The position numbers and the translations under genes were made by a program. A model generated the notes under the pieces. It did not search any database. It saw only the letters and a program-made list of their open reading frames with translations, and had not been told where the DNA came from. A stretch of 64,000 nt of DNA from Anaerolineae bacterium (GTDB lineage Bacteria > Chloroflexota > Anaerolineae > Anaerolineales > Villigracilaceae): the NCBI GenBank assembly GCA_003130845.1, contig QEXW01000013.1, positions 1-64,000 on the forward strand. The letters run 5' to 3'. Shown here piece after piece: positions 10,931 to 15,490 of the stretch (positions are counted from its first letter, which is position 1; each line of letters begins with the position of its first letter).

Positions 10931-13900
10931 TCAAGCCTCGCGCCGCACTACAATCAGGGTCACATCGTCGGAAACCTGGGCCTCGGCAACAAAGTCCAAA
11001 ATGGCGGCATCTATGGCGTTCAAAACTTCATCGGCAGATGCACCGGGGAGCCGTTTTAACAAATCGAATAGCCGCTCTTCGCCAAACATCTCTTCTTGTG
11101 GTGAAAAGGCTTCGGTCACGCCATCGGTATAAAAGACAAGCAGGTCGCCGTGCGATAAGTACAAACTGGCTTCGCGCATCTCTACACCGGTATCTACGCC
11201 CAAAGCCATACCGGTACGGAGCAGGGGTTGAATGTGCGCTTTTCCCTCGGTATCTTTGACCCATAAGGGCGGGTTGTGGCCCGCATTGGCATAAGTAAAG
11301 GCGCCGGTGTGGGAGTCTAATACGCCATAGACGGCCGTAACAAACATGCCTTGCTCGGCATCGGGGTAAAGCAAGTCATTCACTTGACGCAAGGCTTCGG
11401 CAGGAGATTCGGTTTGCAGGACGGCAGCCCGCACTAGGGTGCGGGTGAGGGCCATAAATAATGCGGCCGGCACGCCTTTATCGGCTACATCTGCAATGAA
11501 CAGACCGAGTTTGCCATCGGGAAGTTGGAACAAATCATAAAAATCACCACCCACTTGCCGGGCAGTGCGCCAGCGCGCAGCCAGGTCCCAGCCGGGCAGA
11601 TGTGGTAAGGCTTTGGGCAAAAAGGTCTGTTGAATTTGGCGGGCCAATTGAATTTCGGTCTCCAGGCGCTCGCGGGCGACCATTTCATGTTGGAACAAGT
11701 CGTTTTGAATTGCAATGGCTGCTTGTTGGGCAATGCCGGTCAGAATCTCCAAGCGTCGGGCGCGGAAACGTCGCCCACCGGGGGCTTCTTCGACTATCAT
11801 GACGCCGAACGTTTCACCTTTGACCATCAGGGGCAGGGCAATCAACAAACGTTCGTCAGTATAGGTAATCGCCTCGACCTGTTGTGGAGGGCAGGGTTGT
11901 ATTTCAAGCCAAGCCGCCGGGCCGCGATAGGCCTGTGCACTCATGGACACCTCGCCGGTCTCAATGGCGGCGGCTAAGAGCGGAATGTCGCTGCGCATCA
12001 ATGGACGCCAAACCACAGGACGAGCCTCTTCGGGCAAGCCGTAGGATTGTGCGGGTTGTAGCAGGCCGGTTTCGGCATGGTAAATATAAATGGCGGCACG
12101 TTCCACGCCAATCAGGATGGGCATGATGCGCACGATGGCGGCCAAGATGTCTTCTAATTCGGATAGGCTGACGACTGCTTGCGCGACTTGTAACAAAGCG
12201 GCAGAAGCATAAGCTTGCTCTTGCGCTGCATCGTATAGGCGGGCATTTTCGATGGCAACGGCTGCATAACTGGCAAAGGTGGTTGTCATGGCTTGGGCTT
12301 CATGCCCGTAGCGTCCTGGCGTGTGGTGCGCCAGAGTAAGAATGCCCACGGCTTGCTCGCCAATCCGCAAAGGGGCCGCAATAGCCGAATGGTCTGGAGC
12401 AAACCTTGCCGAGAGTGCCGAGGGGCCGCTGGGGTCGCTGGGTTTGCGAATAAACGGCTGACGCGAAAGTAAGGCGGCTGCCAGCATGGTGTTGGCTTCG
12501 GGGTATAGCTCGCGAGCTTGTTCCAGGTCGGCGGCGCGCGCACCATGTACGGCAGCGCAATATAAGTTCTCCTCGTCCAATAACCAAATGGCGGAAATAT
12601 CGGAGGGCAAGTTGCGTTCCAGCTCGGTCAAAATGGCGTCGAGCACTTGTTCTAAACTGGCGTTGGCCGAAAGGAGTACAGCCACTTCCCGTAGGCTATC
12701 GGCCACTTGTCGCCGCCATTGTTCAGAGCGATACAAGTCGGCATTACGGATGGCAGCCGCGATAAAATCGCCAAGCGTTTCGATGATGAATTTGTCTTGT
12801 GTGCTGAAAGCGTTTAACTGGTCGGATTGCACATCGAGAATACCCAGCACCTGGCCGCTGAAAACGAGCGGCACGGTGAGTTCAGAACGTGTATTGGCGG
12901 GGGGCAAAGGGGAGGGCTGATAGCGTGGCTCTTCGTCCACATTGTTGGCTAAAACAGTTTGTCCGTTGCGCGCTACCCAGGGAATAATCCCTTCCGGCTC
13001 ATCTAGGTCAATCACGTACCCTTCGAGGGCTTCGGAGCGCGCGCCTGAGCCTGCTTCATAGTGAATTTGCCGCCGGTTGGGATGCACGGTGAACAAGTGG
13101 ACGTATGGAAAGCCAAACTCAGTGTGGATGAGTTCGGCGACATGTTGCATGAGTTGATGCAAATCCAAGATAGATGTGATTTGTTTGCTCACTTCGCCCA
13201 CGGCGCGTAATTGATTGGCCTGACGCTCTAAACTGCCGTAGAGATGTGCTCCCTCAATGGCAACGGCCACGCTATCTGCCAGCGCGCGCAAGACGAGCAA
13301 GTCATAGGGGTGAAACGCATCTCGCTTGTCTGATTGCACATCCAGCACCCCTAGCACCCGTTCCTCGATTTTGAGTGGCAGAACCGCTTCAGCGCGGGTT
13401 TCGGGCAAACTATCAATTAACCGATAGGCCGGTTCGGTCTGGACATCATTGACGATTCGTTCCTCCCCGGTGAGAGCGACCAAGCCGACCAAACCTTGCC
13501 CGAGTTCGACGCGGAAAGCCAGTTCTTTGCGTTTGCCGCGCCGACGGGTGGCGCCACCGGAACCAGAACGAAAGGTGAGAACCTTTTGACCAGGCTCTAC
13601 TGTGAAAATGCCCACATAGTAGTACTTGAAAGTAGATTGAATGAGACGGGTGACTTTGTGTGCCAGTTCATCCAGGTCGGGCTCGTTGGCAATCTGGGCG
13701 GCGACGGTGCGCACCAGCCCCAATTGGCCAATGCGCCAGCGCTCCACGGTGATGCGGTGCCAAGCGATAAGCGCGATGGAAGCGGTTCGTGCCAAGCCTT
13801 CTAGAAAATCGAGCTCGCGTGGTTTGAAGGCTTTCCCCGAACTGCGTCGCACTTGAATGACGCCCAGGCCGATTTCCTCGTGCCGCAGCGGAATTGCGAC

Positions 13901-14593
13901 GCTGTGACCTGTTTCATCCTGCCTCGAAAGGAGTTTTTTCTGCTCTATGGCCAGGCGCATTAGTGCTTCAGGTGGCTCAGCCGGGAAAACGTTTTCCACC
14001 CAATCGGGCAAGCGAAAAGCGGTTTCATTCAGCCATAGGCACACTTCTCCCGGCACCAGACGGTTGGTAGTTTCTAGAATCAGGTCACGCTGTGCGGCAA
14101 AGGTGGTTGAGGCCAAAATCTGTTCGCCCAGGTCGAACAGGTCGTGGTAACCGGCTTTGGTGCGCGGCGTGCTTTTTTTGGCCCCCCCCAGGCGCTTAAC
14201 CATCGTCAGCAGGTTGCCTTGTCCTGGCGTGTGGACAAAGCGCACCTCGTCCATCAGTTTGCGCATGAAGAACAACCCTAACCCGCCGATTGGGCGGTCT
14301 TCGAGGGCGGCTTCTACATCGGGTTCTGCAATTTCATCGGGGTTAAATGGCTTGCCTTGGTCTCGAATTAGAATCGTGAGCGCTTCGCGCGTTGCCAGCA
14401 CGGTGATTTCAATCTGCCCATCTGGAATGCCCTCGTAGGCATACTCGATGATGTTAGAGCAGGCTTCGTCCACTGCCAATTGCACGTTGTAAATTTCGCG
14501 CTCATCCATTTTGGCCTGGCGTGCAATCTCTCCGACGAAGTCACGAATCAGGTCGAGGTTCTCAAATTGCGCAGAGAAAGTGCGGGAAGGCAT
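10931..14593 (-). CDS. Fused anti-sigma kinase / multi-GAF / SpoIIE-type PP2C phosphatase
   Basis: About 1220 residues. The N-terminal ~135 residues form an RsbW-like GHKL ATPase with intact boxes: DEACSNIIEYAY (N box), IRDQGKPFNP (G1) and GGLGLFFMRKL (G2). Five GAF domains follow, then a coiled coil (LETEIQLARQIQQTFLP) and a C-terminal SpoIIE-type PP2C domain with the metal aspartates in GGDFYDLF, IADVADKG and VFYTDGVTEA. It should both phosphorylate and dephosphorylate a STAS antagonist, and a STAS gene lies just upstream. The ATG at 14593 is preferred because the ATPase domain begins right after it; a GTG at 14641 would add 16 residues and neither has a good ribosome site. The GAF ligands are unknown. 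Confidence 0.88.
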   Translation of the reverse strand: MPSRTFSAQFENLDLIRDFVGEIARQAKMDEREIYNVQLAVDEACSNIIEYAYEGIPDGQIEITVLATREALTILIRDQGKPFNPDEIAEPDVEAALEDRPIGGLGLFFMRKLMDEVRFVHTPGQGNLLTMVKRLGGAKKSTPRTKAGYHDLFDLGEQILASTTFAAQRDLILETTNRLVPGEVCLWLNETAFRLPDWVENVFPAEPPEALMRLAIEQKKLLSRQDETGHSVAIPLRHEEIGLGVIQVRRSSGKAFKPRELDFLEGLARTASIALIAWHRITVERWRIGQLGLVRTVAAQIANEPDLDELAHKVTRLIQSTFKYYYVGIFTVEPGQKVLTFRSGSGGATRRRGKRKELAFRVELGQGLVGLVALTGEERIVNDVQTEPAYRLIDSLPETRAEAVLPLKIEERVLGVLDVQSDKRDAFHPYDLLVLRALADSVAVAIEGAHLYGSLERQANQLRAVGEVSKQITSILDLHQLMQHVAELIHTEFGFPYVHLFTVHPNRRQIHYEAGSGARSEALEGYVIDLDEPEGIIPWVARNGQTVLANNVDEEPRYQPSPLPPANTRSELTVPLVFSGQVLGILDVQSDQLNAFSTQDKFIIETLGDFIAAAIRNADLYRSEQWRRQVADSLREVAVLLSANASLEQVLDAILTELERNLPSDISAIWLLDEENLYCAAVHGARAADLEQARELYPEANTMLAAALLSRQPFIRKPSDPSGPSALSARFAPDHSAIAAPLRIGEQAVGILTLAHHTPGRYGHEAQAMTTTFASYAAVAIENARLYDAAQEQAYASAALLQVAQAVVSLSELEDILAAIVRIMPILIGVERAAIYIYHAETGLLQPAQSYGLPEEARPVVWRPLMRSDIPLLAAAIETGEVSMSAQAYRGPAAWLEIQPCPPQQVEAITYTDERLLIALPLMVKGETFGVMIVEEAPGGRRFRARRLEILTGIAQQAAIAIQNDLFQHEMVARERLETEIQLARQIQQTFLPKALPHLPGWDLAARWRTARQVGGDFYDLFQLPDGKLGLFIADVADKGVPAALFMALTRTLVRAAVLQTESPAEALRQVNDLLYPDAEQGMFVTAVYGVLDSHTGAFTYANAGHNPPLWVKDTEGKAHIQPLLRTGMALGVDTGVEMREASLYLSHGDLLVFYTDGVTEAFSPQEEMFGEERLFDLLKRLPGASADEVLNAIDAAILDFVAEAQVSDDVTLIVVRREA

Positions 14594-14723: not shown

Positions 14724-15059
14724 TTACAAACTGCCTACTGCGGTTGTGACATCGGGGTAAACCTTGAACAGGCTGGTGAACCCCGCTAGTTCGAGGGCTT
14801 TGTGGATGGTTTCTGGCACGGCAGCCAGCACGACCTCTCCGCGGTTGAAGCGTTTGCAGTTGCGCTGGGCAGCAATTAGGGCACGAAAGCCTGCACTGGA
14901 CATGTACTCTAGGCCAGACATGTCAATCACGATTTTGAAGCGGCTTTCGTTGTTGAGGGCTTCCAGGGCTTCGGCCAGTTTGGGGGCAGTGGCGCTATCT
15001 ACGCGTCCTTTGACGGTCACCAAGTCGCAATGCTTAAATTGTTTGGTCGTGACTTCCAT
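14724..15059 (-). CDS. STAS-domain anti-sigma factor antagonist
   Basis: A 111-residue protein consisting of one STAS domain of the SpoIIAA/RsbV type. The phosphorylatable serine lies in the motif DMSGLEYMSSAGFRAL. Start 15059 is fixed by TTGGAGGAACG just upstream; a longer in-frame extension to 15278 runs through the structured RNA region and is rejected. In this family the unphosphorylated form sequesters the anti-sigma kinase and frees its target. The neighbouring gene carries both the kinase and the phosphatase domain, which makes a compact partner-switching module. No sigma factor gene is in the window. Confidence 0.9.
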   Translation of the reverse strand: MEVTTKQFKHCDLVTVKGRVDSATAPKLAEALEALNNESRFKIVIDMSGLEYMSSAGFRALIAAQRNCKRFNRGEVVLAAVPETIHKALELAGFTSLFKVYPDVTTAVGSL

Positions 15060-15087
15060 CGTTCCTCCAAAAGTCTTTTTAAAGAAA

Positions 15088-15262
15088 GTACCCCGCACAT
15101 GCCGTGAGCCGTAGAGTTCTGAACCTGCATAAGCAGGTTGGGCTTCTGACGCACATTCCCGCCTTGGCCGAGGCCTATCGCGTTCCTGCCGCGAAATGGA
15201 AGCCCTTTCAGAGGGTGTTGGCTCAGAACCGGTGAGACGGCAACACGCACACAGCAGGGTGC
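15088..15262 (-). ncRNA. Structured RNA: 6S-like candidate or 5' leader of the STAS gene
   Basis: About 175 nt with nested complementary segments: 15088-15096 with 15254-15262 (8 of 9 pairs including one wobble), 15101-15105 with 15237-15241, 15116-15122 with 15223-15229, and 15140-15146 with 15199-15205. Inside are a perfect hairpin AACCTGC/GCAGGTT (15122-15139) and a small TCGCG/CGCGA hairpin. Length and rod shape with internal loops resemble 6S RNA. On the minus strand a TGG-TATAAA extended -10 lies 4 nt upstream and the STAS gene 28 nt downstream, so it could instead be a regulatory leader. On the plus strand seven T residues follow the outer stem, so that orientation is not excluded. Confidence 0.4.
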
Positions 15263-15266
15263 TTTT

Positions 15267-15275
15267 TTTATACCA
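15267..15275 (-). promoter_or_regulatory. Extended -10 promoter for the structured RNA / STAS gene
   Basis: TGG followed by TATAAA on the minus strand matches an extended -10 element. No good -35 is visible. It is the only promoter-like signal between the tRNA terminator and the STAS gene. Confidence 0.45.
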
Positions 15276-15365
15276 CAAAACTTAATCCCTAGGGAAGAGG
15301 TGAAGTGTCATCAATTCGTAAAACGGCACATTGCTTGGCGGACTTGCTGGAAGGGTAGTGGAAAT

Positions 15366-15395
15366 AAACACACGCTCGGTCATGAGCGTGTGTTT
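15366..15395 (-). terminator. Terminator downstream of the serine tRNAs
   Basis: A perfect 12-bp inverted repeat (AAACACACGCTC and its complement) surrounds a 6-nt loop. On the minus strand the right arm ends in TGTTT and continues ATTTCC. It lies 5 bp after the tRNA-Ser(GCU) gene in its direction of transcription. Confidence 0.7.
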
Positions 15396-15399
15396 CAGG

Positions 15400-15490
15400 C
15401 GGGAAGGGCGGGATTCGAACCCGCGGCGGAGGTTTAAGCCCCCGCACTCACTTAGCAGGCGAGCCCAATCGGCCTCTCTGGCACCTTCCC
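15400..15490 (-). tRNA. tRNA-Ser (anticodon GCU)
   Basis: Full cloverleaf: acceptor GGGAAGG/CCTTCCC, anticodon stem CTCGC/GTGAG around loop CTGCTAA giving anticodon GCU, a long class II variable arm (TGCGGGGGC...CCTCCGC), T arm with GGTTCGAATCC, and discriminator G. The 3' CCA is not encoded. It decodes AGC and AGU. It lies 28 bp downstream of the second tRNA-Ser in the same direction, so the two are likely co-transcribed. Confidence 0.96.

Follow-up and report, generated by a model that had tools for sequence, protein, structure and literature searches.

A 6S RNA gene upstream of a STAS-domain gene in an Anaerolineae bacterium

The window, the whole 64,000-nucleotide stretch of DNA that was analysed, contains a structured region on the minus strand, with two tRNA-Ser genes upstream and a STAS-domain gene downstream. 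The genes and elements of this neighbourhood are the following.

10931..14593, minus strand: fusion of an anti-sigma-type ATPase, GAF domains and a SpoIIE phosphatase, the next gene downstream (PF13581, GAF families, PF07228)
14724..15059, minus strand: STAS-domain gene of the anti-sigma factor antagonist family, outside the 6S gene (PF01740, 61.2 bits; TIGR00377, 72 bits, over cut-off)
15086..15263, minus strand: 6S RNA gene (ssrS), from its match to RF00013, the sole match in the genome at E <= 0.001
15268..15277, minus strand: extended -10 of the 6S promoter, TGTGGTATAA, from the sequence and its conservation in relatives
15292..15299, minus strand: CTCTTCCC, the window version of a CYCTACCC box at the -35 place, from position counts in relatives
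15366..15395, minus strand: hairpin of 12 bp followed by a T-rich tail, located between the 6S promoter and tRNA-Ser(GCT), seen by eye

The hairpin at 15366..15395 is not listed by the terminator scan and, judging from its sequence, is perhaps the end of the tRNA transcript. ARAGORN places a tRNA-Arg at 15383-15451 on the plus strand, antisense to tRNA-Ser(GCT), which is probably spurious, the tRNAs over the Rfam threshold being on the minus strand only. Among relatives, the same-strand protein upstream of 6S is homologous in 12 of 30 loci (single-linkage BLAST, L001-L030); the one scanned member of this family (L008) is an asparagine--tRNA ligase, a possible ancestral neighbour of 6S. On the other side, the fusion gene at 10931-14593 (minus strand) joins the ATPase, several GAF domains and the SpoIIE phosphatase in one protein of 1220 amino acids, a compact partner-switching module.

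The original prediction described 15088-15262 as a structured RNA that could be a 6S RNA, and proposed an Infernal search against Rfam as a check. This search gives a match to the 6S RNA family (RF00013) at 15263..15086 on the minus strand, with 66.2 bits against a cut-off of 46.4 and an E value of 1.3e-12, covering positions 1-187 of the 187 of the model and extending beyond the predicted region by one base and two bases at its ends. Three matches exceed the threshold in the whole window, the 6S RNA and two tRNAs, and 6S is also the top match in a permissive Rfam scan of the region. Weak matches to plastid elements, isrK and sX4, all under their cut-offs, lie on or around tRNA genes and were dismissed as chance hits. 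The RNA is 178 nt long by the model, within the range of about 160-200 nt given for 6S RNAs in a passage of PMC9130861, and its 5' end is likely A15260 or G15262, judging from the distance to the -10.

The predicted fold and the Rfam model contain the features of the 6S family, namely a rod with a closing stem, a central bubble and an apical stem. For 15088-15262, the predicted minus-strand folding energy is -76.1 kcal/mol, compared to a shuffle mean of -63.45 (sd 4.08, z -3.10), and 1 of 200 dinucleotide shuffles is as stable, which agrees with the claim of a fold beyond that of random DNA. The four nested long-range pairs of that claim reappear in the minus-strand dot-bracket as four nested long-range helices; internal hairpins are present as claimed, but the computed fold has four small local ones instead of two.

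The opposite strand had been credited with seven T residues for a plus-strand transcript, and a structured plus-strand RNA ending there would be an alternative to 6S. The T run exists, at 15263-15269 after a complementary stem, but it corresponds, on the other strand, to the A run of the conserved promoter, which extends from the -10 to the 6S start. Folding of the plus strand is unexceptional (z -1.19), being equalled by 26 of 200 shuffles, and no Rfam family matches 15086-15263 on this strand up to an E value of 1. We consider the chance of a plus-strand RNA to be negligible and read the region as 6S RNA on the minus strand, with the following parts.

15116..15125, minus strand: 3' strand of helix P2 (GGTTCAGAAC), from the alignment consensus and the pair test
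15122..15139, minus strand: 3' central-bubble hairpin AACCTGC-TTAT-GCAGGTT, overlapping the P2 3' strand; motif in 30 of 30 sequences
15205..15219, minus strand: central bubble, 5' side (AACACCCTCTGAAAG), with hardly any pairs in either the Rfam structure or the alignment consensus
15217..15230, plus strand: predicted product RNA (pRNA), 5'-GUUGGCUCAGAACC-3', with its start set by analogy; all 30 rows have the template hallmarks
15220..15229, minus strand: 5' strand of helix P2 (GTTCTGAGCC), the predicted product-RNA template, from the pair test

Compensatory changes in relatives, which had been named beforehand as a check of the prediction, were searched for in an alignment of 30 6S regions (L001-L030, the window being L001), made by sequence only with MAFFT and leaving out four more matches without a locus. 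Although the loci themselves had been located with the Rfam model, the structure under test was taken from Rfam and transferred via the window row, and is thus not fitted to the 30 sequences. Changes on both sides are found at 22 of the 47 pairs and in 97 of 1408 cells (shuffled mean 42.8), the covariation score is 0.207 (0.130 shuffled), and 83.1% of the cells are paired (79.0% shuffled), with 0 of 500 shuffles reaching any of these four values. The fifth measure, further pair types, gives 61 compared to 54.3 shuffled and is reached by 10 of 500. When the partner is slid by 1-3 columns, 33-51% of the cells are paired, the scores are 0.056-0.124, and at most 19 pairs, a number reached at slide -1, show both-side changes. 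RNAalifold alone produces a similar rod with both-side changes at 22 of 48 pairs.

The pairing differs between the helices. Helix P2 (columns 37-46 with 154-163) is paired in 99.3% of its cells, with both-side changes in 3 of its 10 pairs, and the upper apical helix is paired in 62.4% over the 30 rows. In the closing stem, the four outermost pairs are paired in just 12-21 of the 30 rows and three more in 18-19. The apical ACGCGATAGGCY...GCCAAGGCGG (15159-15183, minus strand) is nearly invariant in the 30 relatives beside helices that vary, which suggests a contact or a motif beyond simple pairing.

The region was originally placed between an extended -10 element and the STAS ribosome site on the minus strand, and both elements are present in the sequence. 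For the promoter, loci L001-L056 were counted after dropping six that could not be anchored (L035, L047, L050, L051, L052, and L055). TGnTAT is found 16-21 nt before the 6S anchor CCCT(A/G)C (CCCTGC) in 48 of the 50 anchored loci, being absent from L037 and L048, and the position counts over the 48 loci read T(A/G)TGGTATAAgaa. The neighbouring genes vary, so that the sequence evidence describes an independent gene carrying its own extended -10.

The same 48 promoters have a CYCTACCC-like box at the -35 place, with T in 44 and C in 41 of 48 at the best positions, and upstream of it a weaker stretch resembling TTAAT (28-34 of 48 at each position); no TTGACA-like hexamer was seen in them. The exact pattern CTACC-N13-15-TATGGTATAA was found in 32 of 100 family genomes, with one occurrence per genome, compared to 5 for the reversed control. 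Of these 32 places, 31 are located at 6S, and the remaining one (L137) is too near a contig end to tell; among the 30 that were fetched, 6S follows in 29, in one case cut at a contig end, and the two in G018 and G345 are 6 nt away from the 6S match of the respective genome. We considered a general regulon for the box and rejected it, the exact pattern having been seen at 6S only (31 of 32 places) with no second target among the 100 family genomes. In the window's genus only variants are found, the exact pattern being absent from 11 of 11 genomes, its own included, and a near-match search of the -10 region in the window genome gave 6 places, as many as in the control. By its sequence distribution, the CYCTACCC-type box marks the 6S promoters of much of the family.

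The other suggestion made for the region was a riboswitch-type leader or another cis-acting regulator of the STAS/anti-sigma operon. The position lends itself to this, as the RNA lies directly upstream of the STAS gene: 26 nt separate the end of the 6S model from the start codon, with GGAGG at 15068..15064 and ATG at 15059, and the nearest relative has a gap of 24 nt, likewise with a GGAGG. No terminator-like hairpin was found between 6S and STAS, nor was a separate sigma-70 consensus promoter, in a scan that misses the 6S promoter too. The linkage is however not conserved. Among the own genome and 40 relatives, a STAS match is found in 32 of 41 and a 6S match in 34, and only 2 of the 31 genomes having both (G000 and G009, the latter being the nearest relative) have them adjacent. 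The distance is 122 kb in G018 and about 15 kb in G027, and for the remaining 27 the top STAS match and 6S are on different contigs. Likewise, a STAS gene is near 6S in just 3 of 99 6S loci (L001, L016, and L094; the loci are not independent, and 6 have less than 350 nt downstream), and six STAS loci fetched from other relatives (L102-L107) hold no 6S-like sequence. The RNA moreover matches 6S along its whole length, and no cis-regulatory Rfam family matches 15086-15263 up to an E value of 1 in the permissive scan. Since STAS homologues are located away from 6S in 29 of these 31 genomes, we reject the leader, which we regard as highly improbable.

A coding stretch was considered as well, as the STAS reading frame runs without a stop across 6S up to a TTG at 15278. 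This was taken as chance because in the nearest relative (L016) the frame begins after 6S, at 1685 compared to the model end at 1678.

A different relation to the STAS gene is compatible with 6S RNA and would be an addition to it: in the window genome and its nearest relative, 6S could be the 5' part of a 6S-STAS-anti-sigma transcript and be cut from the read-through RNA, so that the 6S promoter would also feed the anti-sigma switch. In E. coli, ssrS and the gene after it are co-transcribed. Neither L001 nor L016 has a terminator-like hairpin within 100 nt downstream of 6S, which makes read-through into STAS possible in the window, and the short gaps of 26 and 24 nt, each with a GGAGG site, fit a shared transcript. 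Such hairpins are found 3' of 6S in 36 of 98 loci compared to 3.7 expected from mononucleotide shuffles (1 of the 99 loci being too short), but by the same simple test the other 62 lack one as well, so that its absence says little, and the downstream genes vary among relatives. We therefore hold read-through only tentatively and judge it somewhat improbable. A stronger version, in which 6S and the STAS/anti-sigma/SpoIIE-phosphatase switch form one transcript in this species and its nearest relative and 6S is at the same time under a dedicated regulator acting at the CYCTACCC-type box instead of a -35 element, appears unlikely to us. If it were true, an RNA silencing the housekeeping polymerase and a protein switch governing a sigma factor would be made together.

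Taken as a whole, the locus is best explained by a single 6S RNA gene with its own extended -10 promoter, encoding a rod with a central bubble, with the STAS gene as its neighbour, to which we give a probability of about 0.98. The suggestion of a 6S RNA in the original prediction is borne out by the end-to-end Rfam match, the covariation, the conserved promoter, and the product-RNA template site; judged by the aligned sequences, fold, promoter, and template site are conserved.

An RNA of about 175 nt would be transcribed from the extended -10 promoter and fold into the rod with its central bubble. The 6S RNAs that have been studied imitate an open promoter and occupy the RNA polymerase carrying the housekeeping sigma factor when nutrients run out; the polymerase then copies a short product RNA from 6S, predicted here as 5'-GUUGGCUCAGAACC, which leads to the release of 6S. 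By analogy with them, we infer transcription, length, polymerase binding, and pRNA synthesis for the 6S RNA of the window. The STAS gene downstream would be a neighbour, possibly reached by read-through, and not an evolved target of the RNA.

The predicted pRNA is of the GUUGGCUC... type and would be templated by the 5' strand of helix P2, its start being placed by what we take to be the analogous position in E. coli 6S. The template base at this start is C or T in 30 of 30 rows (28 C and 2 T), giving a purine start, and by alignment column all 30 rows have the template CC for GG at pRNA positions 4/5, together with an A next to the start. A passage of a paper on lactic acid bacteria (PMC8414754) names as pRNA hallmarks this A beside the start and a GG at either 4/5 or 5/6.

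The 3' side of the central bubble can form a hairpin with the motif CCTG...CAGG, which is present in 30 of 30 sequences. Its stem hardly varies and therefore gives no covariation support for the hairpin. In folding predictions, the mean probability of the CCUG/CAGG outer pair rises from 0.54 in the free RNA to 1.00 when the 14 template nucleotides are masked (in G012, for example, from 0.46 to 0.98). The increase exceeds 0.1 in 28 of the 30 sequences, G035 and G039 having the pair already when free. The hairpin is thus predicted to be partly pre-formed and to be completed when P2 opens: pRNA synthesis would open helix P2 and free its 3' strand, which the hairpin overlaps. A collapse helix of the central bubble is predicted in the window RNA with the template masked (3.19 expected pairs). 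As a general B. subtilis-like feature it was rejected, as more than one expected pair is gained in only 3 of 30 sequences (G000, G009, and G002).

Compared to known systems, the window RNA shares with canonical 6S RNA (RF00013) the length, the rod with a central bubble, the match over the full model, the covarying helices, and the template site (GG at 4/5, A beside the start). It differs in the nearly invariant ACGCGATAGGCY..GCCAAGGCGG and the CYCTACCC-type promoter box, which were compared within the relatives only. GG at pRNA positions 4/5 is found in E. coli 6S (ssrS) as well, according to a passage of PMC8414754. The window's 3'-bubble hairpin could take part of the P2 3' strand like the E. 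coli release hairpin, which has 9 bp in the passage of PMC8876501 describing it, compared to 7 bp possible by sequence in the window, where the hairpin is predicted to be partly pre-formed. The same source describes a B. subtilis 3'-bubble hairpin that is partly formed in the free RNA, with 5-7 bp. The window RNA would resemble B. subtilis 6S-1 RNA in this, and also in its predicted collapse helix, which is different in being limited to 3 of the 30 sequences of the relatives set. The folding prediction thus puts the window hairpin between the E. coli and B. subtilis versions. The Ms1 RNA of Actinobacteria is another polymerase-binding RNA with a central bubble, binding for the window RNA being assumed by analogy; as described in a passage of PMC9130861, Ms1 is about 300 nt long, has two extra hairpins, and binds core polymerase, whereas the window RNA has about 175 nt and matches the 6S model.

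In the window genome (159 contigs, 3.77 Mb), RF00013 has one match at E <= 0.001. Of the own genome and its 40 relatives, 34 of 41 have a match and 31 of 41 one over the cut-off. One genome scored as a miss (G021) has its 6S cut by a contig end, so that an assembly gap accounts for at least one of the misses. Across the phylum, 399 genomes were sampled, with at least 90% completeness asked for; 118 of them have a match and 98 one over the cut-off, and 281 have no match at a stricter filter. Two 6S matches, of which one exceeds the cut-off and the other falls short of it, are present in each of G116 and G378; these genomes belong to the same genus, within a different family of the class, and may possess a second 6S-like RNA. 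A search with the promoter and 5'-end pattern over named genomes found 43 stretches, all in Chloroflexi/Chloroflexota, Anaerolineae, Anaerolineales, Anaerolineaceae, or Leptolinea, Bellilinea, Longilinea, Levilinea, or Anaerolinea, which we take to be Anaerolineales genera; Leptolinea tardivitalis and Bellilinea caldifistulae are among the species with a related 6S. This distribution points to the Anaerolineales (Chloroflexota) for the window genome as well. All 43 match a profile built on the 30 relatives, L074 in part only (positions 122-173). The 99 6S loci are not independent, as at least 7 of these 43 stretches apparently repeat contigs of L001-L030, and L016 and L094 apparently are the same contig.

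Our literature search found no paper on 6S RNA together with Anaerolineae or with the STAS domain and, judged by title, none on a linkage of 6S RNA with an anti-anti-sigma factor. In the passages found on 6S and Chloroflexi, 6S in the phylum is mentioned once, in one sentence, of PMC7726162, which cites Wehner et al. 2014 for 6S genes in Aquificae and Chloroflexi; on the basis of this citing passage, 6S as such is not new for Chloroflexota. A passage of PMC2864571 refers to an expanded 6S collection in an additional file.

The identification of 15263..15086 as 6S removes a supposed new riboswitch, and the unexplained structured region is a standard housekeeping RNA gene, ordinary in kind. Two details may be new, the CYCTACCC-type box at the -35 place of 6S and the possible read-through from 6S into STAS in the window genome and its nearest relative. 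What 6S biology gains is a sequence alignment for one order of the Chloroflexota, together with a promoter box and a prediction of the product RNA.
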